In this document: piece after piece, positions 1 through 11,929 of the stretch
Layout of the letters: every line of letters begins with the position of its first letter
Position numbering within the stretch: position 1 is the stretch's first letter
Assembly (NCBI GenBank): GCA_002368605.1
Contig: DFEB01000018.1
Location: 1 to 54,513 of the forward strand
Source: Treponema sp. UBA3813
Lineage (GTDB): Bacteria > Spirochaetota > Spirochaetia > Treponematales > Treponemataceae
Direction: 5' to 3'
Length of the DNA stretch: 54,513 nucleotides
Program-made: the position numbers and the translations under genes
Notes under the pieces: model-generated
The model's database searches: none
What the model saw: only the letters and a program-made list of their open reading frames with translations
What the model was told of the DNA's origin: nothing

Positions 1-235
1 TTCCATCAGGGTCTATATAGCGTACCGGATTATTGGCCCCGTAGTGGTACAAATTGCCATTTGAGGGAAGAAGCTGCTTTTTCCCGCGTGTTTCCATGCT
101 CCGCACGACCGAAAGCCAGCTTTTTGAGGAATTCTGATAAAATTTTCTCTCAGTCTCAGTCATTTTCTCTCCGATTATACCATGTTTTTTTGCAATATTC
201 CGAACAAATTCCGTGCTTTCTCCCATTGCTCCCAC
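1..235 (-). CDS. Orphan Rhs tip cassette, N-terminal leader and core end only (partial, runs off left edge)
   Basis: The minus strand reads from a GTG at 235 (or ATG at 226) through about 58 leader residues into NGNLYHYGANNPVRYIDPDG, the hallmark end of an Rhs core. The variable toxin tip that should follow lies beyond the left edge. An in-frame TAG sits just before the GTG, so this copy has no secretion signal or Rhs shell attached. The leader is almost the same as those at 2009-2264 and 6271-6513. Its start is uncertain: the ATG in GGAGAGAAAATG further inside has the best ribosome-binding site. Seen: leader and core motif. Inferred: a further tip/immunity cassette continues to the left. Confidence 0.6.
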   Translation of the reverse strand, partial: MGAMGESTEFVRNIAKKHGIIGEKMTETERKFYQNSSKSWLSVVRSMETRGKKQLLPSNGNLYHYGANNPVRYIDPDG

Positions 236-257
236 AAACGCCTATTGTTGTGACTAA
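1..257 (-). repeat. Type-1 cassette leader repeat, copy A
   Basis: About 250 bp that recur at 2009-2264 and 6271-6513, covering the Rhs core end and the upstream leader. Positions 41-190 match copy B base for base at an offset of 2007; small differences cluster around 195-220. It contains a TGGTATAAT (minus strand) followed by GGAGAG and an ATG. Confidence 0.85.
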
Positions 258-272
258 GACAGGGCGAAAATT

Positions 273-305
273 CCACTATACAGGGAAAATTGGAAAAGGC
301 TATAC
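273..305 (-). repeat. Inter-cassette GTATAG pair, copy 1
   Basis: On the minus strand two GTATAG hexamers (300-305 and 276-281) are spaced exactly 24 bp apart, and the second runs into TGGAATTTTCGC. The element lies between the end of an immunity-like gene (313) and the next leader. The same layout occurs at 2283-2312, 7204-7233 and 8415-8444. It could be a promoter (TATAGT resembles a -10), a processing site or a recombination site; the sequence does not decide. Confidence 0.6.
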
Positions 306-312
306 AAGAAAA

Positions 313-1449
313 TCATTCTGTCGCTGGAATAATCGCCTGTATGCATAAATCTTTATATTTTGTACCTGGATAGACTTCCAAAATTTTAATTTCGAGCATA
401 TTATAGCAAGATTCTTTATAAAAAGATTTTGGGGGGATTCTTATAATACCTGTCAAGTCGAGAGTTTGTTTTTCTTTTGTGTCTTTCAGTTCAAATATCT
501 TTTTTTCCTTGCTACTTTTGTTTGATACCTCTATCCGTTTTGCCCTTGAATTTTTCAGATAAAGGCTCTCATTTTCTGACTGGAAACCGTTGTAAAGGCA
601 CAGTGAATTGCTTTTGTTTCCGATAACGGTGATTTCTATTTTATCGCCGATTCCGAACCCGTTCGATGAAGCCCATGGCAATCCCGAAATTGTCGAGAGA
701 TTCGATGCTTTGTAGGAAGCCTTTTTTTCCACAAGAGCCGAATCAGAAGTGTAAGAAATGCAGGTCGTTTTATATTCCGAAACTGTGTTGGAATCAAGAA
801 TGAAGTAAAATGGAATTTTTCCGAGAGAAATGTAATCTTTGCATATGAGAAAATTGATAAATTTAGTAAAATTTGAATCGGGCTTACATGTTTTTTGAAG
901 TTCGAATGAATTCAAAAAATAATAACTGCCACCTTTTTGGTCATCAACACATTCGTAAAATCCGACCGTGCAAGAATTTGTGTTTTGCTCCTCAATTCTG
1001 TACATATTCAAAAAGAACGGATTCCCGTCCCAGTTCTTTGATTCTGCACAATAAACGCAACCGTCAGAATAGAAAATCGTTTTTTGGTCAGCCATGAAGT
1101 AAGCAAAATATGACGAGCCAATGCAAACTTTATCGTCACCGAAAGAATATTCAGAAAAATCTTCGTGATTCTGGATTTTTAATATGGCGGAAAATGAATT
1201 TTTCTTGATTTCAAAAGTCGAATCATTGATTTTTCGTAAAGAAATCGATTCCGTGACTTGAGTTTTTTTTGTCTTGACATCAGTTTTGAATGAGTAAAAA
1301 TTCTTGGCATTTGAATTGATGGAAACATTTATTGTCGTGTCATTTGTTTCATAAGATTTCAAAATGCCGTTTTCATAATTTGTTATTTGCTCCGTCCAAA
1401 CAGCAATTCCCATTATGAGAAGATAAAAGCCGATTAATTTTCGTTTCAT
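313..1449 (-). CDS. Exported protein, candidate immunity to the L,D-transpeptidase-like tip
   Basis: A protein of 378 residues if read from the ATG at 1449, which has a GGAG eight bases upstream; an in-frame start at 1479 would lie inside the preceding gene and is less likely. The N-terminus (MKRKLIGFYLLIMGIAVW) is a signal peptide or membrane anchor with no lipobox cysteine, so the protein should act outside the cytoplasm. The rest is polar and I recognise no family. It begins one base after the stop of the Rhs tip gene, the standard toxin-then-immunity order. An exported immunity protein fits a toxin that attacks peptidoglycan. Role inferred from position and topology only. Confidence 0.6.
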   Translation of the reverse strand: MKRKLIGFYLLIMGIAVWTEQITNYENGILKSYETNDTTINVSINSNAKNFYSFKTDVKTKKTQVTESISLRKINDSTFEIKKNSFSAILKIQNHEDFSEYSFGDDKVCIGSSYFAYFMADQKTIFYSDGCVYCAESKNWDGNPFFLNMYRIEEQNTNSCTVGFYECVDDQKGGSYYFLNSFELQKTCKPDSNFTKFINFLICKDYISLGKIPFYFILDSNTVSEYKTTCISYTSDSALVEKKASYKASNLSTISGLPWASSNGFGIGDKIEITVIGNKSNSLCLYNGFQSENESLYLKNSRAKRIEVSNKSSKEKKIFELKDTKEKQTLDLTGIIRIPPKSFYKESCYNMLEIKILEVYPGTKYKDLCIQAIIPATE

Positions 1450-1450
1450 A

Positions 1451-2242
1451 TTATTTGCTCCATTCTTCTGGATTACCACTTACATGAATTTTTGCAGTAG
1501 TATTATCACAATGTTTATTAATTTCAAATAACTTAAGCAACAATTGCATATCTTCTTTTGTTTTTACTCCAATGCAACCATATGTATTTGTATAATCTGT
1601 AAAGTGGATGTAATAGCCTCCATCAATGGTATATATCTGAACGCCATTTTCATCAAGAACTGGAGATACATTCGAATATTTTCCATTTTCTTGCAAATCG
1701 CCTTTAAACACTTCAAGGCTCTGAGTGGCATCTGTGGTAATCCAAAAATCCCCATAATGAGAAGAATTACTTGTTTTTCCAGTTCCTGTTAAATTGAAAT
1801 CTCCATTTGGAAATTGTGTAGGTTTTGTTCCATTGCTCTGTAATGTTCCATCATCTCTGGTACTTATAGTTCGTTGGTCGCCAGGAACCACATTAGATGT
1901 AACTTTCTCATAACTGAATGACCATGTTAAAGGAGTGCTATCTTCTGTGCACCGAAATCTTACTGTTAGAGTTTGTTTAGATTTGTTAAAAAACAAATCT
2001 AAACGTTTCCCATCAGGGTCTGTATACTGTACCGGGTTATTTCCCCCGTAGTGGTACAAATTGCCATTTGAGGGAAGAAGCTGCTTTTTCCCGCGTGTTT
2101 CCATGCTCCGCACGACCGAAAGCCAGCTTTTTGAGGAATTCTGATAAAATTTTCTCTCAGTCTCAGTCATTTTCTCTCCGATTATACCATGTTTTTTTGC
2201 ATTTTCCCGAACAAATTTCGTTCTTTCTCCCATTGCTCCCAC
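1451..2242 (-). CDS. Orphan Rhs tip with L,D-transpeptidase (YkuD/Tlde1)-like domain
   Basis: Up to 263 residues from a GTG at 2242 (ATG at 2233 or 2170 are alternatives). Residues 1-58 are the shared leader, 59-78 the Rhs core end (NLYHYGGNNPVQYTDPDG), and 79-263 a unique tip. The tip has a transpeptidase-like layout: a beta-rich start (FNKSKQTLTVRF), a PNGDF segment, and near the end H213 followed by YGC223IGVK, resembling the H...S/xGC(I/V)R motif of YkuD and of the type VI effector family Tlde1. The Arg after GC is Lys here. Such effectors damage peptidoglycan. No secretion domain is present, so the gene may be silent until joined to an Rhs shell. The domain call is by motif, not by a search. 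Confidence 0.6.
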   Translation of the reverse strand: MGAMGERTKFVRENAKKHGIIGEKMTETERKFYQNSSKSWLSVVRSMETRGKKQLLPSNGNLYHYGGNNPVQYTDPDGKRLDLFFNKSKQTLTVRFRCTEDSTPLTWSFSYEKVTSNVVPGDQRTISTRDDGTLQSNGTKPTQFPNGDFNLTGTGKTSNSSHYGDFWITTDATQSLEVFKGDLQENGKYSNVSPVLDENGVQIYTIDGGYYIHFTDYTNTYGCIGVKTKEDMQLLLKLFEINKHCDNTTAKIHVSGNPEEWSK

Positions 2243-2264
2243 AAACGCCTATTGTTGTGACTAA
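2009..2264 (-). repeat. Type-1 cassette leader repeat, copy B
   Basis: Near-identical to copy A (1-257) and copy D (6271-6513). It spans the Rhs core end, the leader coding stretch, and the CTCCCACAAACGCC edge. The similarity ends at the core DPDG codons on one side and shortly beyond the leader start on the other, where the unique parts of each cassette begin. Confidence 0.85.
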
Positions 2265-2282
2265 AGAAGTGCGAAAATTCCA

Positions 2283-2312
2283 CTATACAACAAAAGTCGG
2301 AAAAGACTATAC
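2283..2312 (-). repeat. Inter-cassette GTATAG pair, copy 2
   Basis: GTATAG hexamers at 2307-2312 and 2283-2288 (minus strand), period 24 bp, just downstream of the ankyrin lipoprotein stop and upstream of leader copy B. The spacer sequence differs from the other copies while the period is kept. Confidence 0.6.
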
Positions 2313-2326
2313 AAGAAGAGATTTTT

Positions 2327-3235
2327 TTACAAAAAAGTGTTTAAGTATTCTATTATTAAGTCGATTTTTTTGACATCATCAGAATCTTCGTCGAATTTTT
2401 TGTCGTTGCCGTGATAATGAGTAAGATTATCCCTCACTTCCAATGCCTTTTCTAATGGGGTGAAAAACAGTTCTTCCTCATCATCATAATATTTTTTGTT
2501 GGGATTCACGCCTTTTCCTATGAAGTATTCCAATGCATCTTTATTGTCGATTGCAATAAGCAAAACGGGAATTTCATCGGGGAAAACATAATTTTCCCCA
2601 TAAATTGTTTCGATAAGCTTAGGAGTTTTTTCAGTCCAGCGATAAATCAAGTCATATAAAGTGCCGCTTTCTTGCTTAAAATACGAACGCACATAATCAT
2701 ATCCCAAAAACATTTCCGCAAAATCATAATTCAAATACAATCCGTGATTTTTGTCATTCTGATTTTCTGTGCAACAGGTTAGATAAGTCTGCCCGTTGTA
2801 ACCGCGATAATTTAAATCAACATTTTTTTCTAAAATGGCTTTTCCTAAAATCAAATTGTTGTGATGAATAGCCCATGAAAAAACAGAAAGCTGCTCTTCC
2901 GTGTCAACCCAATTGACATTTGCTCCATGCTCAATGGCAAGCAATGCAACCTCGGTCTGATTTTTTGAGGCTAAATAGTAAAGCAAAGATTTTCCCTTGT
3001 AAATTGAATTTGCGTTCGCTCCTTTCAGAATTGCCTTTTTAATTCCCTGCGAATCTCCTTTTCCCCACATCTCCAAAAGAAATTCATCAGGCGAAATGTC
3101 CTTGCTATAATCAGATACGGTCAAAAAATCTGAAACCAAATCGTCAAAACTTCCAGCCGAATCTGATGAGTTCTTGCTGCATGCAGAGAGAAAATACAGA
3201 AACAAAAAAAGACAGAAATAAACGAATTTTTTCAT
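2327..3235 (-). CDS. Ankyrin-repeat lipoprotein, candidate immunity protein
   Basis: 302 residues. The N-terminus MKKFVYFCLFLFLYFLSACS is a lipoprotein signal with lipobox LSAC, so the protein should be anchored in a membrane on the periplasmic or outer side. Residues about 60-170 carry ankyrin-type repeats (GDSQGIKKAILKGANANS, NQTEVALLAIEHGANVNW, NNLILGKAILEKNVDLNYR). Ankyrin proteins are a known class of immunity partner in polymorphic toxin systems. Its ATG overlaps the stop of the upstream cysteine-peptidase-like tip (ATGA), which couples translation. Extracytoplasmic placement suggests the toxin acts there. The specific pairing is inferred. Confidence 0.7.
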   Translation of the reverse strand: MKKFVYFCLFLFLYFLSACSKNSSDSAGSFDDLVSDFLTVSDYSKDISPDEFLLEMWGKGDSQGIKKAILKGANANSIYKGKSLLYYLASKNQTEVALLAIEHGANVNWVDTEEQLSVFSWAIHHNNLILGKAILEKNVDLNYRGYNGQTYLTCCTENQNDKNHGLYLNYDFAEMFLGYDYVRSYFKQESGTLYDLIYRWTEKTPKLIETIYGENYVFPDEIPVLLIAIDNKDALEYFIGKGVNPNKKYYDDEEELFFTPLEKALEVRDNLTHYHGNDKKFDEDSDDVKKIDLIIEYLNTFL

Positions 3236-3912
3236 TGATTGTCTCCTTCTGGTTTGTAAATGAGATAAATCGCTATCAAATCAGATTTTTTGTATTCTTT
3301 TTTATTTCTTGTGTCATTGTAAGAATAAGGGTCAAAATAGTTCATCGAACCGTCAGATTTTACCCCTGTTATATTTATAAAATGGGTACTTCCGTTTTTA
3401 GTTTTCACCTGACCGATAACATATGCTTCCTTATCAGCCTGTTGTGCAAGAAATAACATGGCATTTTTCTCACCTCCATAATATTTTGAAACTTCAAGAT
3501 TTTCTCCTGTCATATCAAAAAGAAGATTCTTCAAATTTTTTGTAGAAGAGTCGAAATCGGTCGGCGCACCACCTATCCGCGATACCCCATTAAATGTAAA
3601 ATAATCATCATTTGAAGCCAGTTCTGCAACGGTTTTTTCTTCATACACTCCATGTGAATTTCGTATGTTATAAGAATTCCCAACATTAACAAAGCAAGTA
3701 AAAAGACAACCGAAATTGCCAACACTGTTTTCCGTTTCTCCATATTGTTTAGAACTATAAGACTGATATTGACCAATAGTCGCATTTTTATTCTGCAATG
3801 AATTTTGATGCTGCCATGAAAGTATAGTCTGTATAAACTTTCCATCCGGGTCTGTATACTTGACAGGGGTATTTCCCCGCGTAGTGGTACAAATTGCCAT
3901 TTGTAGGCACAA
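3232..3912 (-). CDS. Orphan Rhs tip with C39/papain-like cysteine peptidase domain; core motif frameshifted
   Basis: The open frame gives 226 residues with NTPVKYTDPDG near the start and a tip of about 200 residues. In the tip, GC69LFTCF, H177FINITG and YFD194P form a Cys-His-Asp order typical of C39-like and papain-fold peptidases, including C39-like toxin domains. The Rhs core just upstream is broken: NGNLYHYAG is encoded one frame away, as one extra base lies in the GGGGAAATACCCC stretch near 3866-3878. The start is therefore unclear (3912 or ATG at 3900) and no ribosome-binding site is convincing. It overlaps the ankyrin lipoprotein by four bases. Likely a silent or decayed cassette whose toxin/immunity pair is still intact. 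Confidence 0.5.
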   Translation of the reverse strand: MCLQMAICTTTRGNTPVKYTDPDGKFIQTILSWQHQNSLQNKNATIGQYQSYSSKQYGETENSVGNFGCLFTCFVNVGNSYNIRNSHGVYEEKTVAELASNDDYFTFNGVSRIGGAPTDFDSSTKNLKNLLFDMTGENLEVSKYYGGEKNAMLFLAQQADKEAYVIGQVKTKNGSTHFINITGVKSDGSMNYFDPYSYNDTRNKKEYKKSDLIAIYLIYKPEGDNQ

Positions 3913-3944
3913 GGCGCTTTCTTGTTGACGGAATCAGTATTTTG

Positions 3945-4124
3945 AATTATTATATTATCAGAGTGATTCATCTGCCTAGTGCAGAAGGAGTTAAGGGGTC
4001 GAGCAACAATCGATACCCTTTTTTTTATGCCCACGGAAATTTCTCTCCTTTCTTATACATTTCCTCAAAATACTCCACATTTCTTTCAAACACATAGAAT
4101 GATGTCGCGATGAAGAATTTCTTT
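3945..4124. repeat. 180-bp segmental duplication, copy 1
   Basis: Matches 9396-9575 over 180 bases with a single difference that I can see (A/G at the CGATACCC/CGATGCCC site). It covers the last 33 codons of the gene at 4025-4537 plus about 80 bp downstream, including an AT-rich TGATAATATAAT (minus strand) that lies upstream of the next cassette. Confidence 0.9.
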
Positions 4125-4537
4125 GTCTTTGTCTCTATGCTTTTCAGTATAACAAGGAATTTTCCGTTTTTGTACCACAGGTAATACTTGTAGATTTCTT
4201 TTCCTGCTTTTTTGTCAAATTCTTTGCATCTCCAGCATGTAATGTCGGAATTTCTGAAATTTTGGATAATGGGTTTCAGCCAGCAAAGTCTCTTCGCCCG
4301 CTCGTAGTCTATGCCGCGAGTGTCGCTGCTTCTGCTTCCTTTCCGCTCCTGCCTTGAAATGATGTGCCAGAAAATTTCGGGATATTTCTCTCCTTCTTTC
4401 GGGCGGGGAACGACAACAGGATAAGCCATAAAATATGTGATATTGTCTATAAAATCCCGCTTGAATATTTTGAATAGTTCAGGCACTTGGGAAACCGCAT
4501 CGTCGGGAATCTTTGTCAATTCGGGCAAGTCAAGCAT
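4025..4537 (-). CDS. Unknown protein translationally coupled to a DUF3800 protein
   Basis: 170 residues, no signal peptide or membrane segment. Two closely spaced CWRC cysteines (CW-x-CKEF near residue 105) and a C-terminal alpha/beta stretch with KYYLWYKNGKFLVILK and FFIATSFYVFE are the visible features. I do not recognise the family with confidence; the C-terminal strand pattern is reminiscent of small nuclease-like domains, but this is speculation. Its ATG shares one base with the stop of the DUF3800 gene (TAATG), so the two are made together. The 3' end is part of the 180-bp duplication at 9396-9575. The pair occupies a cassette slot between Rhs tips. Confidence 0.6.
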   Translation of the reverse strand: MLDLPELTKIPDDAVSQVPELFKIFKRDFIDNITYFMAYPVVVPRPKEGEKYPEIFWHIISRQERKGSRSSDTRGIDYERAKRLCWLKPIIQNFRNSDITCWRCKEFDKKAGKEIYKYYLWYKNGKFLVILKSIETKTKKFFIATSFYVFERNVEYFEEMYKKGEKFPWA

Positions 4538-5253
4538 TACGCCCCCTTCTCTGAACTTGGGAAAAAATGAAAAAGATTAAATTTCGTGTTCCACGGCTCG
4601 TTGGAAGAGCCAAGACTGCAGCCCGACTTTGATTCTATATATGAAACGATTTCTTTTTTTGCCTCGCTCGTCTCAAGTTTGCGACTTTTGTACATCACGG
4701 CACCCAGCAAGAAATCATCCAGTTGCAGGGCTTCGCTTTCGTGCGAGCGGATAATCTGAAATTTCGGAAGCGCATAATCCTTGTAATCGTGCATGTAATT
4801 GCCCAGTGCTTGCTTCAACTGCTTGATTTTATACGAGCCGTGACTGTCTTTTATGTCAAAATAAACATTGAAAATATCGTCCCTCCGCCTGTGGTCAATC
4901 ATATTCCGTAAAAGGCAATAGTACATTTTATAATAAAAACTTTCGTGGTTTCCAAGATTAAATTCTTCGCGTGCCAGAGACTTTTTATTTTCCACGACCA
5001 ACGCACTGAAAGAAATGCCCGTCTCCTCAAAAAAATAGTCCGCAAGTCTCTTATAAAACAAGACATTCTTCGGGGAGACTTTTATCCACTTTAATTCCTG
5101 GCGGCAATTATATTGACTCTTTATTTTCTTTAAAGCCAATGAGATTTGCCGAGAATCGTTTTTCGGAAGGCAAATGCAGCCAAAACCCATTACATCAAAA
5201 CGGTCATTCTGAAGATAGCAACTTTCATCACAATAAATATTGTATTCTGCCAT
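4537..5253 (-). CDS. DUF3800 domain protein (RNase H-like fold)
   Basis: 238 residues. The N-terminal YNIYCDES, central ELKW, YFDIKDSHG and C-terminal ALQLDDFLLGA are the signature acidic positions of DUF3800, a family thought to adopt an RNase H-like nuclease fold and frequent on mobile elements and in defence islands. A conserved role is not established. It starts at an ATG after AAAAAAGGAAAG. Upstream lie a TGCTATAAT extended -10 (about 5291-5299) and a type-2 leader repeat, the same leader type that precedes the lone gene at 6576. It is followed with one-base overlap by an unknown partner. Placement inside the Rhs array suggests defence or toxin-related cargo (inference). Confidence 0.75.
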   Translation of the reverse strand: MAEYNIYCDESCYLQNDRFDVMGFGCICLPKNDSRQISLALKKIKSQYNCRQELKWIKVSPKNVLFYKRLADYFFEETGISFSALVVENKKSLAREEFNLGNHESFYYKMYYCLLRNMIDHRRRDDIFNVYFDIKDSHGSYKIKQLKQALGNYMHDYKDYALPKFQIIRSHESEALQLDDFLLGAVMYKSRKLETSEAKKEIVSYIESKSGCSLGSSNEPWNTKFNLFHFFPSSEKGA

Positions 5254-5287
5254 GCTTTTTTATCTTTCCTTTTTTCGGGAGACATGA

Positions 5288-5299
5288 TTCGTTGTATTA
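5288..5299 (-). promoter_or_regulatory. Candidate extended -10 promoter for the DUF3800 pair
   Basis: The minus strand reads TGCTATAATACAA here, an extended -10 (TGnTATAAT) about 40 bp before the DUF3800 start. No good -35 is seen, which is tolerated for extended -10 promoters. TGnTATAAT also appears in both leader types nearby. Confidence 0.4.
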
Positions 5300-5334
5300 T
5301 AGCAGAATTTCAGAGTTTAAATCAGTGGGATTTT

Positions 5335-5399
5335 ATATTTTCTTGCAAAATCCCGGACTTTTTCCTGTTGTGCTGCCCCAACTCCCACAAACGCCTATT
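5335..5399 (-). repeat. Type-2 cassette leader repeat, copy 1
   Basis: 65 bp identical to 7110-7174. On the minus strand the frame that corresponds to the type-1 leader reads VGVGAAQQEKVRDFARKY, resembling type-1 VGAMGERTKFVRENAKKH at the protein level, but it then meets a stop. It looks like a relic of the same coding leader. Confidence 0.8.
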
Positions 5400-5407
5400 T
5401 GTGGGAG
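5382..5407. repeat. Perfect 10-bp inverted repeat at a cassette boundary
   Basis: CTCCCACAAA (5382-5391), six-base loop CGCCTA, then TTTGTGGGAG (5398-5407). The left arm is the conserved edge of all leaders; only here is the matching arm complete. At 8380-8391 a similar TTTGTGGGAAG remains. It could be a hairpin or a recombination end. Confidence 0.7.
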
Positions 5408-5474
5408 TAACAAACAGAAATTTGAAGGGCGCGAGGTACGCTAGATGTAACGCGTCTAAATAAAAAATGTCATT

Positions 5475-5666
5475 TTAATTTTCGGTGGAGTAAGTTGGCA
5501 AAAAATAATATACTACACCGACTACAATAATTGCGATAACAAACATTATTACTAGATTCCTTAAAAAATTTTTAGTTTTGCATCCAGACCAAAAGAACCC
5601 TCGCACGAAACTACCTAGTGTAAGAAGCAAAGAAAGCGAAAGAATAATTAGAATATCTCTTATCAT
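5475..5666 (-). CDS. Small two-helix membrane protein, candidate immunity protein
   Basis: 63 residues with two hydrophobic segments (about 4-24 and 38-55) separated by a short basic loop with one cysteine. The ATG at 5666 has AAAGGA seven bases upstream and lies 11 bp after the stop of the Rhs tip at 5678. Tiny membrane proteins directly after a tip gene are typical immunity partners for toxins that act on membranes. No family recognised; role inferred from position. Confidence 0.6.
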   Translation of the reverse strand: MIRDILIILSLSLLLTLGSFVRGFFWSGCKTKNFLRNLVIMFVIAIIVVGVVYYFLPTYSTEN

Positions 5667-5677
5667 AATATTTTCCT

Positions 5678-6505
5678 TTAGTCTTGCAGTTGCCTTGCTT
5701 TTCTTATATCATCTCTTATTTTGTTTACACTTTTTTGATTATACGACATCCATTTTATATTTCCTGTTTTATCATTCTCATAATGCAATTTACCATTTTT
5801 AATAAGTTCATTTATCCCATTTTTTGCAATATTGTATAGTTCCGAAAGTCCTTCATGCGAAGATGAATATAAATCACTGCCAAAAAGGGACCCTATCAAA
5901 TTATCTTTAGCAATAATCCCCCCCTTTAAAAGTATTGCTCCAAGATGAACAGAGAAAAATAGAAATGAAGCTTTATTAGAATTTTTACCTAAAAAGCCAA
6001 ATACTTTGTTTGTTTTTCCTAATGAAGATGAAGTTCCTGTAATTACTCCTATAGAATCAGATATTTTAGAATTAGCCGATATAATGTCGTCTTGTAGAGA
6101 ATTATTTTCTATTTCCTTAATTCCGAGAACTTTATTAACAGCATTTTGTACAATTCCTCCAAGGAAAGGAATTGGTATACTGTCATAACCAACTTCAGAT
6201 GCCTCAAATAATGTCGAATTATCCGAAAAAAAACGATATGTATCGCCATTTTTTATTGAATATGCTTTTCTCCCATCAGGGTCTATATAGCATAGGGGAT
6301 TATTCCCCGCGTAGTGATACAAATTGCCATTTGAGGGAAGAAGCTGCTTTTTCCCGCGTGTTTCCATGCTCCGCACGGCCGAAAGCCAGTTTTTTGAGGA
6401 ATTCTGATAAAATTTTCTCTCAGTCTCAGTCATTTTCTCTCCGATTATACCATGTTTTTTTGCATTTTCCCGAACAAATTTCGTTCTTTCTCCCATTGCT
6501 CCCAC
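5678..6505 (-). CDS. Orphan Rhs tip, unknown C-terminal domain
   Basis: Up to 275 residues from GTG 6505 (ATG 6496 or the internal ATG at 6433 are alternatives). Leader residues 1-58, core end NLYHYAGNNPLCYIDPDG to residue 78, then a tip of about 197 residues. The tip has glycine-rich hydrophobic stretches near 107-125 (IPIPFLGGIVQNAVNKVLGI) and 180-205 (SFLFFSVHLGAILLKGG), which could insert into membranes, and a basic C-terminus (NKIRDDIRKARQ). No enzymatic motif is evident. The downstream partner is a 63-residue membrane protein, which would fit a pore-forming or membrane-acting toxin. The domain family is not recognised. Confidence 0.55.
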   Translation of the reverse strand: MGAMGERTKFVRENAKKHGIIGEKMTETERKFYQNSSKNWLSAVRSMETRGKKQLLPSNGNLYHYAGNNPLCYIDPDGRKAYSIKNGDTYRFFSDNSTLFEASEVGYDSIPIPFLGGIVQNAVNKVLGIKEIENNSLQDDIISANSKISDSIGVITGTSSSLGKTNKVFGFLGKNSNKASFLFFSVHLGAILLKGGIIAKDNLIGSLFGSDLYSSSHEGLSELYNIAKNGINELIKNGKLHYENDKTGNIKWMSYNQKSVNKIRDDIRKARQLQD

Positions 6506-6513
6506 AAACGCCT
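6271..6513 (-). repeat. Type-1 cassette leader repeat, copy D
   Basis: Third near-identical copy of the core-end plus leader block (compare 1-257 and 2009-2264). A few substitutions (for example CACGGCC for CACGACC) separate it from the others. Beyond TGGGAG the sequence departs into TAGGATTTGTATC rather than the GTATAG pair. Confidence 0.85.
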
Positions 6514-6575
6514 ATTTATAGGATTTGTATCTAGTGATTTCAGACGAGTTGAAAACGCTATATGTAGCGTGACCA

Positions 6576-7040
6576 TTAATCAGATTTATATCTTTCAATA
6601 AAAAGTTTTCTAGTATTTTTTAAATCTGCTAAATATATTCTCCTGTCATCAAATGTCCAAACAAAAACCTCAGTTTTTTCTTGAGTATAAAAATCATCGG
6701 GCAATAATATTTTTTCTATTTTCATTTGAGATTTTTTATTTAGTATAGATTTTATTATATTATTAACTCTGTCAGAATTGAAAAATAGAATAATATAAAA
6801 ATTTTTATTAACTGAAAAACCTTGAATTTCAATCTTATCTATTAGAATTCTTTTTTCAGGACATTCTTCAAATTTTTTTTTATATCTGAATCCTAATTCA
6901 TAAAAATCATGATTTATAGAATTTGCATTTTCAAAATTATAATCAAAAAATAAAATCTTTTTATAATTATCAAATATATAAAAATAGGATATAATTAGAA
7001 AAAAAAATAATATAAAAATCAAGACAATAATTCTTTTCAT
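6576..7040 (-). CDS. Membrane-anchored protein, possible orphan immunity protein
   Basis: 154 residues from the ATG at 7040, which has GGA seven bases upstream; an ATG at 7052 is also possible. One N-terminal membrane segment (about 5-24), then a charged domain with FRYKKKFEECPEKR and FVWTFDDRRIYLADL. Very AT-rich, with runs of A and T unlike the flagellar genes. It follows a type-2 leader with no Rhs tip between, so it is either an immunity gene that has lost its toxin or stand-alone cargo. No family recognised. Confidence 0.5.
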   Translation of the reverse strand: MKRIIVLIFILFFFLIISYFYIFDNYKKILFFDYNFENANSINHDFYELGFRYKKKFEECPEKRILIDKIEIQGFSVNKNFYIILFFNSDRVNNIIKSILNKKSQMKIEKILLPDDFYTQEKTEVFVWTFDDRRIYLADLKNTRKLFIERYKSD

Positions 7041-7109
7041 TTTACATTCCATAAAAATTGATAGTGTAGAATTTTCTCTCTGCGTTTCTCATTTTTGCCC
7101 CATTATATC

Positions 7110-7174
7110 ATATTTTCTTGCAAAATCCCGGACTTTTTCCTGTTGTGCTGCCCCAACTCCCACAAACGCCTATT
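7110..7174 (-). repeat. Type-2 cassette leader repeat, copy 2
   Basis: Identical over 65 bp to 5335-5399. Downstream on the minus strand comes TGATATAATGGGGCAAAAATGA, again a TGnTATAAT. Compared with type 1, one base is missing just before the ATG, which breaks the leader reading frame. Confidence 0.8.
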
Positions 7175-7203
7175 GTTGTGACTAAGACAGGGCGAAAATT
7201 CCA

Positions 7204-7233
7204 CTATACGGTGGGAATCAGGAAAGGCTATAC
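7204..7233 (-). repeat. Inter-cassette GTATAG pair, copy 3
   Basis: GTATAG at 7228-7233 and 7204-7209 (minus strand), period 24 bp. The TAG of the first hexamer is the stop codon of the membrane protein at 7228-7593. Confidence 0.6.
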
Positions 7234-7593
7234 ATCAAATTTTTCAGTTTTCTTTTTTTGTTTTATATCCATAATCAAAAACAAATTGTTAAGAATGACC
7301 AAAGGTAAAAAAGAGAAAATATCAATAAGAATGAACGCAGATTCTCCGAGTTTCTTCTGACTCAAAATAAAAAGCAAAACAGCATCACTAATATAGAGTA
7401 AATTAACAATGATTTCAGTTATAATACTAAATAAAATAGGATAATGCTTTGAAAAAATAAATATGTATGTGCATAAGAACATAAGAAGTAAACAATAAAC
7501 TATTTTATTGTTTAACAGAAAATTGAAATTAATAATAAAATCAAACAATGCATAAATTACAGCAAAAATGCAAACTTTTAGATAATAATTCAC
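7228..7593 (-). CDS. Four-helix membrane protein, candidate immunity protein
   Basis: 121 residues with about four hydrophobic helices (5-25, 28-48, 52-75, 84-108) and a short lysine-rich cytoplasmic tail. It starts four bases after the stop of the Rhs tip at 7598; the AAGGTAGTTCC upstream provides a weak ribosome-binding site. The stop codon falls in the inter-cassette GTATAG element. Very AT-rich. Likely the cognate immunity protein by position; an integral membrane immunity protein suggests a toxin met at the inner membrane or periplasm. Confidence 0.6.
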   Translation of the reverse strand: MNYYLKVCIFAVIYALFDFIINFNFLLNNKIVYCLLLMFLCTYIFIFSKHYPILFSIITEIIVNLLYISDAVLLFILSQKKLGESAFILIDIFSFLPLVILNNLFLIMDIKQKKKTEKFDV

Positions 7594-7597
7594 GGAA

Positions 7598-8212
7598 CTA
7601 CCTTCCTTGATAAAAAGCAGGCGCAGTATTCAGTAGGAAACTGAAATACGGCTTTTGAGGAACATTTCTCGGTAATTTGTAATCTGGTAATGAAATAGCT
7701 AATGTGTTGAAAAGTGCGGTGTTACAATTTTCCCGATTTTTCATATTTGAACGATGATCCATAAAATAATATTTTGTTTCTGAATTTATAGAATTTATTA
7801 TATTGTTCAATGTAGTTTTTATATCAATTACTTCATTTGGAACAATTAATTTCATATCATAACCATTTTTTCCACTAAGCATTTCCTCGTACCCTGCTCT
7901 ATCTGTAGGAGTATTGATAGCCCAAGCACCTTTTGATAACGGAAGAAAATCAACGGTTCCATTAAAGCTTAATGTGTAATCAGTATCATTTTCTTTGTCT
8001 TTTATTATATATAAACTATGAACTTTTATAGGACCTCTATTACCTCTAACTATTGCTGCCCTTTGATATACCGAAATTTCATAATTTTCAGGATTGTTAA
8101 TAATTTTTTGCAAAAAGTTCGGGATTTTAGATTCTTCATCTAACATTTCTTTTTCACTTTTTCCGTCCGGGTCTGTATACTTGACAGGATTGTTTGCGGC
8201 ATAGGCAAACAA
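7598..8212 (-). CDS. Orphan Rhs tip, possible permuted-papain-like cysteine hydrolase
   Basis: 204 residues from a TTG at 8212 that is the Leu of NGNLFAYAANNPVKYTDPDG; an in-frame TAG lies four codons upstream, so the Rhs core is cut right at its end. The tip (18-204) has VH65SLYII in a strand, then YYFMDHRSNMKNREN-C163-NTALFNTL. A His-strand followed later by an NCN/NC motif is the order seen in circularly permuted papain-like folds (PPPDE, LRAT/YiiX-like). This is motif reading only. No signal peptide. A downstream four-helix membrane protein is the likely immunity partner. An AAGGAGG about 35 bp upstream is not placed to serve this start. Confidence 0.5.
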   Translation of the reverse strand: MFAYAANNPVKYTDPDGKSEKEMLDEESKIPNFLQKIINNPENYEISVYQRAAIVRGNRGPIKVHSLYIIKDKENDTDYTLSFNGTVDFLPLSKGAWAINTPTDRAGYEEMLSGKNGYDMKLIVPNEVIDIKTTLNNIINSINSETKYYFMDHRSNMKNRENCNTALFNTLAISLPDYKLPRNVPQKPYFSFLLNTAPAFYQGR

Positions 8213-8414
8213 ATTGCCATTTGTCTAACGAAACGCCCCTGTTTGCCTCCTTGAAGACTATTGTAGCACGGAAATCGGGATAAATCATCACTCCTCGCAA
8301 AATTTTCGGCAGGAAATCGGGGAATCCCGCACGAAATTCTGCCGAATTCCCCGCCCAGCCTCAGCAAGGCTGACAAATCCCAATTTGTGGGAAGTAGTAG
8401 GGAGAAAAATTCCA

Positions 8415-8444
8415 CTATACGGTGAGATTTGGGAAAGGCTATAC
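8415..8444 (-). repeat. Inter-cassette GTATAG pair, copy 4
   Basis: GTATAG at 8439-8444 and 8415-8420 (minus strand), period 24 bp, immediately after the lipoprotein stop at 8452. Confidence 0.6.
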
Positions 8445-8451
8445 AAATCAT

Positions 8452-9003
8452 TTAATATCTGTATTGAACAATTCCTTTTTTAACTTCTTTAACCGCCGTT
8501 GCTTTCAAATTTTTTGTTATTTTAACTCCGTTACTAGTCACAGTTGCATTTAGTGTTACCGAAATTTGCCGAACCGTTTGAAGTTCATACGCATATTCTG
8601 TTTCAAAATATCCGAAATAAGATTCTTTATTTGGATAACTTGCTTGATTAATTGCGACCTCCACTGGCAAAGGATTTTCTACACAAACTTTTTCGCCATC
8701 AAACTCCATCGATATAGAATTTATAGTTATTATTGTATTGTATTGAAGTGATTCAAATACAAGACTTATTGAATATGGAGACTTTGTGCTGTACATTGTA
8801 TCTTCTATTCCATTTGAAACAAAATAAAAAAATACATTTCCAATTATGCAATCAGAATTTTCACTATTTATTTCTATGCTTCCTGTTTTTACACGATTTT
8901 CCAATGAACAACTACAAAACTTAGTCGTTTTCCATGGCCCTATAGAACAACTCGTAATGGTAAATGACAGTAAAATAATGAAATAAATCTTAATGATGCT
9001 CAT
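8452..9003 (-). CDS. Lipoprotein, candidate immunity protein
   Basis: 183 residues from ATG 9003, which has GGAG seven bases upstream; longer in-frame starts lie inside the upstream gene. The signal peptide ends in lipobox ITSC, so it should be membrane-anchored outside the cytoplasm. The mature part is beta-rich (ISLVFESLQYNTIITINSISM, VTLNATVTSNGVKITKNLKAT). It overlaps the preceding tip fragment by 14 bp. No family recognised. Confidence 0.6.
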   Translation of the reverse strand: MSIIKIYFIILLSFTITSCSIGPWKTTKFCSCSLENRVKTGSIEINSENSDCIIGNVFFYFVSNGIEDTMYSTKSPYSISLVFESLQYNTIITINSISMEFDGEKVCVENPLPVEVAINQASYPNKESYFGYFETEYAYELQTVRQISVTLNATVTSNGVKITKNLKATAVKEVKKGIVQYRY

Positions 9004-9376
9004 AATATTGCTCCATTGCTTTGTTTCTACCTTCCTCAGCTTTTTGTGCCCTGAATTTTGCCGCTTCATCTTTTGTAGCATTTACATTCCCTTGATAAGT
9101 ACCTGTTATGCGTTCCCAAGTAGTTGTAGGATCATCAGGAGAATTTCCCCACCGATAATAAGGTAACATATCCTGAAAAAAGTGACCTATAGGATCTGTA
9201 TTTGGATCTGTTCTATTGTAAGTTCCCTGATTTACAGGGTCAATAATTTTTTGATCTGTTTCTCGGTTATAAACAGTTTCATTTTTTCCATCCAAACTTA
9301 CAAATTTATCATTTAAACTGGGGTCATAATCATTTGCGGTACCTTGTTCATGATAACTATCTTTTCCTTCAGACAT
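8990..9376 (-). CDS. Detached polymorphic-toxin C-terminal fragment
   Basis: 128 residues, polar, no signal or membrane segment. The middle (KIIDPVNQGTYN, DPNTDPIGHFFQDMLPYYRW, GN) resembles a conserved tail found at the C-terminus of polymorphic toxins, as I recall it; the exact family cannot be confirmed here. Unlike the other tips it has no Rhs core motif and starts at an ATG directly after the 180-bp duplicated segment. The C-terminus is followed, with 14 bp overlap, by a lipoprotein gene, giving the usual toxin-immunity order. It may be a truncated tip that acquired a new 5' end through the duplication. Confidence 0.45.
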   Translation of the reverse strand: MSEGKDSYHEQGTANDYDPSLNDKFVSLDGKNETVYNRETDQKIIDPVNQGTYNRTDPNTDPIGHFFQDMLPYYRWGNSPDDPTTTWERITGTYQGNVNATKDEAAKFRAQKAEEGRNKAMEQYYEHH

Positions 9377-9395
9377 TTTTATTGCTTTTCCACTT

Positions 9396-9575
9396 AATTA
9401 TTATATTATCAGAGTGATTCATCTGCCTAGTGCAGAAGGAGTTAAGGGGTCGAGCAACAATCGATGCCCTTTTTTTTATGCCCACGGAAATTTCTCTCCT
9501 TTCTTATACATTTCCTCAAAATACTCCACATTTCTTTCAAACACATAGAATGATGTCGCGATGAAGAATTTCTTT
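9396..9575. repeat. 180-bp segmental duplication, copy 2
   Basis: Copy of 3945-4124 with one visible mismatch. It sits between the flagellar operon terminator and the right-most toxin fragment and marks the right edge of the cassette array. Confidence 0.9.
9476..9575 (-). pseudogene. Truncated copy of the 170-aa gene's 3' end
   Basis: Encodes only the last 33 residues (KKFFIATSFYVFERNVEYFE onward to the stop) of the protein at 4025-4537, with no start. It is a by-product of the 180-bp duplication. Confidence 0.75.
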
Positions 9576-9663
9576 TTCGGGCAAGCGAGCCGCCGTCACG
9601 GAAGGGCTTGTGATTCTGGGCGCGGTGTTTACGGGGGCGATGATGTACAAAATGAGGGAGTGA
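9574..9663 (+). pseudogene. Possible 3' remnant of a gene on the plus strand
   Basis: From the end of the duplicated segment to the TGA at 9661 the plus strand reads FSGKRAAVTEGLVILGAVFTGAMMYKMRE, a plausible end of a small membrane protein that lacks any beginning. GC content is higher than in the cassettes. It may be what remains of a gene cut by the rearrangement. Short, so a chance reading is possible. Confidence 0.25.
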
Positions 9664-9665
9664 AT

Positions 9666-9708
9666 ATATAAAAAAAAGCATCTGTCGAATGTTTTTTGAC
9701 AGATGCTT
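9666..9708 (-). terminator. Intrinsic terminator of the flagellar operon
   Basis: On the minus strand an 11-bp perfect stem (AAGCATCTGTC with GACAGATGCTT, 9698-9708 and 9676-9686) encloses an 11-base loop and is followed by a run of Ts. It lies 22 bp after the fliY stop and separates flagellar transcription from the cassette array. Confidence 0.9.
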
Positions 9709-9729
9709 GAAAGAATTCGTAATTTTTGG

Positions 9730-10902
9730 CTAGTGCAGATCGCTCACGCGCTCCATGGGCGAGAGAATCTCGGTGACACGGACGCCGAAGTTTTCGTCGA
9801 TGACCACGACCTCGCCCTTCGCGATTGGCTTGTGGTTCACGAGAATATCGACAGGCTCACCGGCCAGCTTATCAAGCTCGATGATTGTACCTTCGCCCAT
9901 TCCCAAGATGTCCTTGATTTGCTTTTTGGTGCGGCCAAGCTCTACGGTCATCTCCATGTTTACATCCATGATAAGACCGATATTGCCCTGCTCCTGCGTT
10001 GTAGGACCGCCTGTAAGATTCGGGTATTGAACCGACTGTACATTTGGAACGCCCATTCCCATAGGCATTCCTCCCATTTGCATAGCACCACCCATAGGCA
10101 TTCCCATACCCATGCCTCCCATCATCGGCTGCTGCTGGAAGCCGCCCATCTGAGCCTGAGCCATACCGCCCATGGGCATTCCACCCATCTGAGGTTGACC
10201 GCCAGCAAGATTAGCCATTGAAGCCATATCTGCGGCATTAAGAGTTCCGCCAGCTGCGGGAGCCGGATCTGGAGAACCACCACCAAGTGCACGGGCAATC
10301 CCCTCTGCCACATCGCTAGAGACAGCTTCCCATAAATTGTATGTCTGACCATCAAGTGAAAGCGGGTATGTAAACAAGGCGAAAGTTCCCTGAGGAATTC
10401 GAACCATTGCTTTTGGCACATGAACTGCCTCCGGAGGATTTGAAGCAAGTCCCGCGATAGAACTCAAGTCGGTAATTTCTGAACCTGTGTGAGTTGAGAT
10501 AAACTCACCGATTACAGAAAGTGCCATATCATCAAGTTCTGCATTATCTTCTTTATTGACAAGGCTCGTAATTTTCTGCGCAAATTCTGGAGCAAGGAGC
10601 ACGAGGTGGTCACCCTTGAGGCCTGCATTAAAATCAGCCATTACAGCAACCACCATTTCCGGCAATTTTGCAAGCAGCTGATCACGATCCATCGCCTCAA
10701 CTGAAGGCGCGCCGATTTCGAATGACGCTCCTGTCATGCCGTTCAGGTTTGCAACAGCCTTGTCTTTCAGGCCCTCTGCAAATTTCGTAAGCGTAGCTGT
10801 ATCGACATTCACATTGGAAGATGGACCTGATGAAAGACCTCCAACATCAACGCCTGACAACAATGCGTCAATTTCGCTCTGTGATATTGTTCCATCACTC
10901 AT
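9730..10902 (-). CDS. fliY: Flagellar motor switch phosphatase/switch protein FliY
   Basis: 390 residues from ATG 10902, chosen because AGGAG lies nine to ten bases upstream and it overlaps the fliM stop as ATGAGTGA. The N-terminal ISQSEIDALLSG is the conserved FliM/FliY start motif that binds CheY-P in relatives; residues about 45-200 resemble a CheC-like domain; the C-terminal 85 residues are the SpoA/FliN domain (MDVNMEMTVELGRTKKQIKD, VVIDENFGVRVTEIL). Between them is an unusual Met/Gly/Gln-rich linker of about 60 residues (repeated GGMPMG and MGMGMPMGG). It forms the C-ring with FliM and FliG at the cytoplasmic base of the motor. It is the last gene of this operon here. Confidence 0.95.
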   Translation of the reverse strand: MSDGTISQSEIDALLSGVDVGGLSSGPSSNVNVDTATLTKFAEGLKDKAVANLNGMTGASFEIGAPSVEAMDRDQLLAKLPEMVVAVMADFNAGLKGDHLVLLAPEFAQKITSLVNKEDNAELDDMALSVIGEFISTHTGSEITDLSSIAGLASNPPEAVHVPKAMVRIPQGTFALFTYPLSLDGQTYNLWEAVSSDVAEGIARALGGGSPDPAPAAGGTLNAADMASMANLAGGQPQMGGMPMGGMAQAQMGGFQQQPMMGGMGMGMPMGGAMQMGGMPMGMGVPNVQSVQYPNLTGGPTTQEQGNIGLIMDVNMEMTVELGRTKKQIKDILGMGEGTIIELDKLAGEPVDILVNHKPIAKGEVVVIDENFGVRVTEILSPMERVSDLH

Positions 10903-11929
10903 AAGATTCATCTCCTTCTACTGATAATTCTTCGAATTCATCAGATTCACTCTGATCTATTTTTCCTATAACCTGAACAGCCATCTTCTTGCCGACGACA
11001 CCAGGCTGACAGTAAAATTTCTTCTCGTTTCCGACACTCAAGGTAAGCGGATCGCCCACACGAACAGTAGAAAGGCGCACGACATCACCTGCCCGCAAAG
11101 CCAAAACTTCACGAATCGGAAGATTTATTGTGCCGATTTCAGCGACCACATCCATGTTGACATCAGAAAGCTTTTCTTTGAGAGTGCCAAGATATTGGGT
11201 AGTTGAGCTTCGTCGGACAGAACTGAACCAGAACTGTGACGAAAGTTTTGAAACAATCGGCTCAATGGTGAGGTAAGGGATACAGAAGTTCATCATACCC
11301 TCTTCTTCACCGATTTTTGTTTCCAAGGTTACCAAAACGACCATTTCTGACGGAGGAACAATTGAAGCGAACTGCGGGTTAGTCTCAATCTGTCCCAATC
11401 GAGGACGAAGGTCAATGACCTGAGTCCAAGCCTCGCGCATATTCGCCAGGATTCGCACGATAATGCCTTCCATAACGGACTGCTCAATATCGGTCAAATC
11501 ACGGCTGACTTTCGCTCCCTGACCTGTACCACCGAACAAGCGGTCGATAACGCTGAATGTAATGGCCGGGTCAATCTCAAGAACAGCGTTACCCTTGAGA
11601 GGATCCATGTTGATAACGGCCAGCGTGGTTGGAGTCGGAATCGAGCGGACAAACTCTTCGTAAGTGAGCTGGTCAACCGAAGCGACATGGACATGAACCA
11701 ATGAGCGCAACTGTGCTGAGAGACTTGTTGTTGTAAGACGCGCGAATGTTTCGTGCATAATCTGCACGGTACGAATTTGTTCCTTTGAGAACTTATCCGG
11801 ACGCTTAAAATCGTAAATCTTAATCTTTCGCGTGTCACTGACCGGCTTAAAATCATCTGCCCCGGAATCACCAGAAGAGATGGCTTGAAGCAATTGGTCA
11901 ATTTCATCCTGTGACAGAACCTCGTTCAT
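10895..11929 (-). CDS. fliM: Flagellar motor switch protein FliM
   Basis: 344 residues, the usual FliM length. The N-terminal VLSQDEIDQLLQAI is the CheY-P binding motif; the central CheC-like domain contains the family segment LRSLVHVHVASVDQLTYEEF; the C-terminal SpoA domain (VVAEIGTINLPIREVLALRA) pairs with FliY/FliN. It sits in the C-ring and couples chemotaxis signals to rotation direction. Start ATG 11929 follows a GGAAGG about nine bases upstream. Overlaps fliY by eight bases. Confidence 0.97.
   Translation of the reverse strand: MNEVLSQDEIDQLLQAISSGDSGADDFKPVSDTRKIKIYDFKRPDKFSKEQIRTVQIMHETFARLTTTSLSAQLRSLVHVHVASVDQLTYEEFVRSIPTPTTLAVINMDPLKGNAVLEIDPAITFSVIDRLFGGTGQGAKVSRDLTDIEQSVMEGIIVRILANMREAWTQVIDLRPRLGQIETNPQFASIVPPSEMVVLVTLETKIGEEEGMMNFCIPYLTIEPIVSKLSSQFWFSSVRRSSTTQYLGTLKEKLSDVNMDVVAEIGTINLPIREVLALRAGDVVRLSTVRVGDPLTLSVGNEKKFYCQPGVVGKKMAVQVIGKIDQSESDEFEELSVEGDESYE

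Follow-up and report, generated by a model that had tools for sequence, protein, structure and literature searches.

Rhs tip/immunity arrays with palindromic cassette borders in Treponema: a putative site-marked cassette system

The first 9578 nt of contig C47 (DFEB01000018.1) of Treponema sp. UBA3813 (GCA_002368605.1) hold an array of Rhs tip genes with immunity-like genes behind them, next to the flagellar gene fliY. The whole contig (54,513 nt) was analysed and is called the window. We regard its array as one of several Rhs tip/immunity arrays in a site-marked cassette system of Treponema, a reading to which we give a probability of about 0.6. A cassette of this system would start at site C (where the Rhs core end encodes NGNLYHY), continue through the tip and the immunity gene, and end at site H (a palindromic motif); behind H there would usually be a leader of constant length and then another C. 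Plain homologous recombination seems to account for this anatomy less well than a site-specific cassette system, and is not the best-supported mechanism: palindromic motifs mark the cassette borders, and in sister genomes such arrays are associated with a tyrosine recombinase. G000 is the host genome of the window (2.60 Mb, 83 contigs, completeness 88.5%); other G numbers denote sister Treponema genomes, C numbers contigs and L numbers fetched loci, among which L045 and L048 are the C2 and C41 loci of G000. Recombinases were surveyed in 200 genus genomes and the exact H pattern in 98.

Cassette borders at sites H and C

Most cassettes begin at C in the core end and finish at the related palindrome H, which in G000 reads CCYACAAA-6 nt-TTTGTRGG and has variants in other genomes, e.g. 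CCGCCAAATAGGTATTTGYCGG in G169. Results showed that the six exact matches to the 20-nt H pattern in G000 all lay in arrays, as did five of the nine with one mismatch. A longer exact pattern was found at 17 sites in 4 of the 98 genus genomes: 14 were within 2 kb of a cassette, two were at contig starts, and the remaining one (G028 C16) had no cassette in the 11 kb examined. Meantime, the reversed exact pattern had no match among these 98 genomes. The arms of 15 hand-picked H sites covaried (90.4% paired), with a covariation score that was reached by none of 500 shuffles. Site C resembled H as well, agreeing with the H of its own genome at a mean of 14.6 of 22 positions (54 C sites from 10 genomes; background 6.6, 99.9th percentile 14.4), although these comparisons are not independent tests since the C sites are mutually related.

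The spacing of the two sites was regular within genomes. H was located 177-199 nt upstream in 9 of the 13 leader-type C sites of G000 with enough upstream sequence; two of the other four had H further up with an intervening cargo gene, and two had no H. The H-to-C distance was 169-170 nt in G082 (5 sites) and 319-321 nt in G028 (6 sites; a seventh, core-type site had 430). Leaders vary between arrays, yet in G000 and several sisters they change to core DNA within 9-15 nt of one point. A PD-(D/E)XK transposase-family gene (L045:11095-11884) and an AlbA-type gene (L047:16279-17667) were also found between H and C, as if cargo enters there.

Duplicated cassettes placed the borders on the same motifs. 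A 1199-nt cassette is present twice in G000 (C41:54-1252 and C27, 94.3% identical), and the match starts in C and stops at the end of H. The C41 copy is fused to NLPGMGGVFNHI of true core and is followed by H and a recombinase gene, and the C27 copy sits within an array. Judged from this pair, tips do change between core-fused and array states, because one cassette is found in both. In G082, a cassette 98% identical on two contigs with different neighbours has its upstream match border at H; on the downstream side the following leader is shared as well, so that border carries no information.

Further arrays of G000 are located on C2 (64.8-77 kb), C27, C41 and C20, and 4 of 10 tips tested from them reached a Pfam cut-off (Peptidase_M91, Colicin_E5, AHH nuclease and a ribonuclease domain). 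The original prediction, drawn from the window, saw in its array a store from which tips could be swapped onto a full rhs gene by recombination in shared core DNA, and it named the lack of any rhs shell sharing the core-end DNA, together with an array fixed in all strains, as evidence against itself. As far as core fragments go, such sharing exists (C2 at 72.9 kb, two fragments in C20 and the start of C41), and one cassette is known in both states, so the prediction is not refuted on this point; a plain store for homologous recombination nevertheless explains the array less well than a site-marked system. The full-length rhs gene with a matching core end that it looked for was not recovered: scans of the 88.5% complete assembly with PF05593 and TIGR03696 returned only fragments and the C37 rhs gene (1818 aa), whose core end is different. 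A search with the N-terminal portion of a sister shell, run without positive control, found no match in G000.

A tyrosine recombinase linked to the arrays

The recombinase gene on C41 lies behind the cassette and H, and encodes 330 aa with a PF00589 domain. The enzyme scored 215 bits against the XerA-like family NF040815, slightly under the cut-off of 220, and its best solved structural relative was 4a8e. It presumably keeps the catalytic residues of tyrosine recombinases. At 66% identity or more (E <=1e-115), 12 copies were detected in 11 of the 200 genomes; two fragments in G002 (83-85% identity) fall outside this cut-off. Eight of the 12 copies lay 463-3145 bp from a core-end gene, and the recombinase was directly behind a cassette on the same strand in six cases (G000, G045, G124, G138, G169a and G168). 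In G000 and G138 the tip ahead of it is fused to true core, and in G169 it stands at the end of an array with five tip-like genes ahead, four of them matching the core-end pattern. In G000, G138, G084, G045 and G169b, H precedes the start of the recombinase gene by 52-77 nt. The contigs of G084, G150 and G169b leave 101-508 nt upstream, too little to tell on cassettes. The end of the C2 array of G000 holds a decayed recombinase trace (44% over 61 residues, plus two short DNA matches).

In the tree, the 12 recombinases grouped at 90/97, which is not full support, beside G073 and G082 (95/94 as a pair). Recombinases at 51-53% identity in G044, G001, G065, G004 and G093 formed a separate clade (96/92) beside hsdS genes, identified by Pfam for two of the five genomes and by eye for three, and none of the five had Rhs core ends within 14-15 kb. 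Likewise, none of 30 relatives on viral contigs showed the Rhs core-end pattern in the flank examined.

Taken with the borders, these positions suggest how exchange could proceed. The recombinase, often encoded right behind a cassette, most likely recognises C and H; it would excise the tip-immunity unit, perhaps as a circle, and the unit would insert at the C of a shell gene, where the new tip would be fused in frame with its immunity gene alongside. The displaced old tip would then move downstream as an orphan. A stronger claim would be a dedicated, integron-like system, in which a resident recombinase excises, stores, reorders and loads tip-immunity cassettes onto the shell via sites in core codons, and whole islands insert elsewhere, here in the flagellar operon; we hold this tentatively, at somewhat under even odds.

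Several minor features accompany the recombinase. On C41 it is followed by HU-like, LuxR-type, NlpC/P60, holin-like and 122-aa genes (L048:2483-5111); four proteins of this cluster have relatives at 78-99% identity in G090, and three have weaker ones in G084. An inverted repeat (GATA...TATCAGGAG) surrounding the ribosome binding site was seen by eye before the recombinase start in G000 (L048, just before 1315), G090 and G084 (L218, L220), and may limit translation of the enzyme. The 3951-base contig C65 of G084 (L220), with recombinase, NlpC-like and LuxR-like genes, carries H with one mismatch at each end, as if the recombinase module were itself a cassette. Contig C225 of G082 (L222) starts in half an H site, about 230 nt ahead of a 53% identical recombinase. 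A toxin-antitoxin-like pair of the same type was noticed by eye beside the C2 array of G000 (L045:5700-6430) and the G090 recombinase (L218:12826-13436); regulators of toxin-antitoxin type are also named at the pneumococcal tvr locus in excerpts of PMC6265443.

The window array and the fliY-fliO region

The window array runs from 9578 to the left edge, all on the minus strand, as judged from open reading frames (ORFs) and repeat comparison. Its features, with those up to fliY, are as follows.

9730-10911, minus: fliY, flagellar gene upstream of the array (ORF; relative at at least 59 loci)
9670-9714, minus: fliY terminator, first copy of an exact 45-nt direct repeat (second copy at C71:41724, ahead of fliO)
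9583-9660, plus: remnant (26 codons) of the gene that closes the HU/LuxR/NlpC/holin-like cluster behind the C41 recombinase (tblastn, 73% identity, E 2e-8)
9396-9578, minus: 183-nt repeat of the DUF3800 partner gene end (3945-4127), 99% identical
8990-9376, minus: tip-like ORF without core end (no Pfam match)
8452-9081, minus: immunity-like lipoprotein (ORF; no Pfam match)
8370-8391, minus: site H, 2 mismatches, within type B element 8205-8450 (pattern match)
7598-8212, minus: tip gene, begins at core site C (ORF, site mapping)
7228-7593, minus: immunity-like membrane protein (ORF; no Pfam match)
7159-7180, minus: site H, 3 mismatches (pattern match)
6576-7052, minus: orphan gene after a leader element, without tip (ORF; no Pfam match)
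6501-6522, minus: site H, 1 mismatch (pattern match)
5678-6505, minus: tip gene with leader peptide and core end (ORF; no Pfam match)
5475-5666, minus: immunity-like membrane protein, 63 aa (ORF; no Pfam match)
5384-5405, minus: site H, exact (pattern match)
4537-5253, minus: cargo, DUF3800 protein (PF12686, E 8e-12)
4025-4537, minus: cargo, partner of the DUF3800 gene (ORF; no Pfam match)
3886-3907, minus: core site C, 1 mismatch to the 20-nt H pattern (pattern match)
3232-3912, minus: tip gene whose core end begins in a different frame (ORF; no Pfam match)
2327-3235, minus: immunity-like lipoprotein with ankyrin repeats (PF12796)
2238-2259, minus: site H, 3 mismatches (pattern match)
2053-2074, minus: core site C (pattern match, site mapping)
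1451-2242, minus: tip gene with leader peptide and core end (ORF; TIGR03696 22 bits, under cut-off)
313-1479, minus: immunity-like protein, NADase-type glycan-binding domain (NF047619, E 2e-22)
231-252, minus: site H, 3 mismatches (pattern match)
2-235, minus: leader plus core end of one more cassette, truncated at the contig end (ORF, repeat matches)

The ORFs and repeats bear out the predicted layout, a tandem minus-strand tip/immunity array without an Rhs shell; in positions 1-9578 neither the ORFs nor profile scans with PF05593 and TIGR03696 revealed a shell. Five tip genes, rather than the four first counted, carry a core end (NNPxxYxDPDG or a variant); four of them are complete, each forming a putative tip-immunity pair. 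An immunity-like gene (small lipoprotein, membrane or other), assigned by position only, stands directly behind all four complete tips. The first pair (8990-9376, 8452-9081) has no core end, the DUF3800 gene with its partner fills one slot of the array and the orphan gene another, and in the cassette at 3232-3912 the NLYHY part of the core end is out of frame with DPDG and the tip. None of the five tips of the flagellar (fla) array examined (4 in the window, 1 on C71) reached a Pfam cut-off.

The conserved inter-cassette elements were confirmed as 300-nt repeats whose copies are 93% and 81% identical, far above chance. Ahead of each tip the repeat has two halves, H plus leader and then the core end proper. 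The tips carry core ends, as predicted, but only from NGNLYHY onward; the roughly 40 codons ahead of it are a separate leader and not Rhs core. Type A leaders hold a TATAAT box and an in-frame ATG (MTETERKFY...), which could allow orphan tips behind them to be produced independently of a shell. In the window's type B leader, a stop lies in frame ahead of the core end. Leader peptides of a similar kind were also present in G048 and G090. The element was considered as a general promoter repeat and this was rejected; the type A (3) and type B (14) matches in the genome were all in or at the ends of arrays.

The array lies, as predicted, between the flagellar terminator and the left edge within the window, but that edge is the contig end. 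It falls within a core end that is itself a repeat; this accounts for the break in the assembly and implies that the array continues. Contig C71 ends with at least one more cassette, matching in type and orientation, and beyond it fliO, fliP, fliQ, fliR, flhB and flhA (names by eye). The two contigs do not overlap because the tip of the last C47 cassette is missing, and at least one tip is therefore predicted in the gap. C47 would join C71 there, and the array probably sits between fliY and fliO.

To compare relatives, loci with fliY were fetched; seven non-spirochaete loci (L142-L148) were excluded, leaving 52 spirochaete loci. The fliY-fliP gap was 611-974 nt in 50 of these, with fliY and fliO adjacent; in the two exceptions the contig ends within fliO (L131) or other genes follow fliY (L096), where chemotaxis-like genes take the place of fliO. 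The array core end was found in none of the 52 (E 1e-3). The 45-nt fliY terminator is present twice in G000, behind fliY and before fliO, and once in each of eight relatives inspected by eye. Most likely a block entered between fliY and fliO, because relatives keep the gap without an array and have a single terminator, which is doubled here. The array would then be a non-autonomous island, with the terminator duplicated on insertion. The segment at 9583-9660, beside fliY, codes the last 26 residues of the protein that closes the C41 cluster, and so connects the fla array with islands of the C41 kind. Direct repeats were also sought at the flanks of the C2 array, with only a 12-nt low-complexity match, so terminator duplication is seen at the fla insertion only; other flanks are incompletely assembled or unexamined. 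Among the matches listed from named genomes, which may leave out G000 itself, the nearest fliY (94% identical) came from an uncultured Treponema of roe deer omasum. Elsewhere, genes named by eye as ilvB-like and ATP-grasp-like (L047 left flank, L226) and ilvD-like (L049, L231) neighbour arrays or sites in both G000 and G028, and from these like neighbours some array locations may be old.

Alternative readings and known systems

Several findings weigh against a site-marked system. No recombination event, circle or population variant was seen. No recombinase trace was found within the window array, whose H sites are exact in one of six cases and have 2-3 mismatches in four. The G119 recombinase (1 of 12) has no cassette in its 1.5 kb of upstream sequence, and in G028, although it is rich in H sites, no recombinase matched at E 1e-30, which argues against a single enzyme serving every array. 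When up to 2 mismatches are allowed, the H pattern has 68 matches per strand in G000 versus 37 for the reversed pattern; weak H sites are therefore often chance and weak matches mean little. Two of the five covariation measures (double-change pairs and pair types) were reached by 70 and 127 of 500 shuffles. C was not significantly closer to the H of its own genome than to those of others (p 0.08), and the claim of genome-specific H-C co-variation was dropped. Since C lies in coding DNA of related proteins, likeness across cassettes is partly descent. Moreover, homologous recombination could likewise make use of the leaders and of the core end that cassettes share (about 60 nt).

With one exact H only and no recombinase trace, the window array may be either a remnant or reliant on the C41 enzyme acting in trans. 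That the fla array arrived once with neighbouring DNA, is now inert and owes its repeats to past duplications only has a chance we place just short of even. Besides the degenerate H sites, the cluster-gene remnant at 9583-9660, the core-end frame change in 3232-3912 and the duplicated 183-nt segment all fit such a frozen state. It is, on the other side, compatible with a site-marked system overall, and the intact C41 recombinase could act in trans.

It is unlikely, though worth serious weighing, that this is a classical orphan Rhs array, where cassettes accumulate and are swapped by RecA-dependent homologous recombination in leaders or core ends, the palindromes being incidental and the recombinase a mere neighbour. 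The leader-plus-core repeats are long and alike (in the window 81-93% over 300 nt; in G028 88-93% over 370-387 nt), and tandem tips that retain long stretches of core but lack clear H sites, as expected on this explanation, occur in G066 and G036. In Salmonella, tip exchange is ascribed to homologous recombination, over 522 bp at 95% identity in the excerpts available (Koskiniemi 2014, PMC3967940). However, homologous exchange would leave varied remnants, whereas the core stops at one motif (9-15 nt) behind several leaders, and both the recombinase linkage (8 of 12) and the palindromes are left unexplained. It is improbable that the H palindromes are transcription terminators or RNA elements insulating cassettes: H does come right after the immunity gene, with a TATAAT-like box next in the leader, but no T run followed the H sites inspected, a similar motif lies in coding DNA at C, and the borders of duplicated cassettes fall on the motif.

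The site-marked system preferred here shares parts with several known ones. Orphan Rhs/CDI modules and polymorphic toxin cassettes, as excerpted from PMC3482391 and PMC3967940, have the same core end, variable tip and immunity gene behind, tip and immunity moving together, and cassettes in a row; unlike the orphan Rhs of Salmonella, the Treponema cassettes have a palindromic motif at their borders and recombinases of one specific clade behind them. XerC/D genes are noted beside some polyimmunity loci in the portion seen of Zhang 2012 (PMC3482391), and Rhs clusters are mentioned in other treponemes, e.g. 50.5 kb in T. pedis, in a passage of PMC8049484. A literature search by title and start of abstract, among open-licence papers, found no published recombinase for Rhs tips. 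The question is how the toxin on a polymorphic delivery protein can be changed while the matching immunity is kept, to which the quoted Salmonella answer is homologous recombination (PMC3967940). If the proposed system is real, a recombinase cutting fixed sites on both sides of the tip-immunity pair would swap it in one step, making the toxin repertoire switchable.

Integrons, including a Treponema chromosomal integron described in excerpts of PMC3607928, likewise have arrays, a palindromic site at most cassettes and a recombinase ending some arrays, but the Treponema Rhs cassette starts inside a coding frame. The C41 enzyme is not an IntI-type integrase (TIGR02249, 65.7 bits versus a cut-off of 265), and the H consensus (CCCACAAATnGnnATTTGTnGG) lacks the AAC/GTT triplet pair of integron attC sites. 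As in an hsdS-type shufflon, a family-related recombinase is linked to exchangeable, variable genes (8 of 12 near Rhs). At hsdS loci with such enzymes, e.g. pneumococcal tvr, circles and excision-reintegration are shown in excerpts of PMC6265443; the link of the C41 enzyme to tvr is made through the Treponema copies beside hsdS, to which it is about 52% identical. The Treponema system differs in that its target is an Rhs tip with an immunity gene, palindromes lie at both cassette ends and arrays can be long. In the pilV shufflon of R64, the tyrosine recombinase Rci exchanges C-terminal tips of a surface protein by inverting segments. Unlike these, the array tips of G000 are in direct orientation, each with an immunity-like gene.

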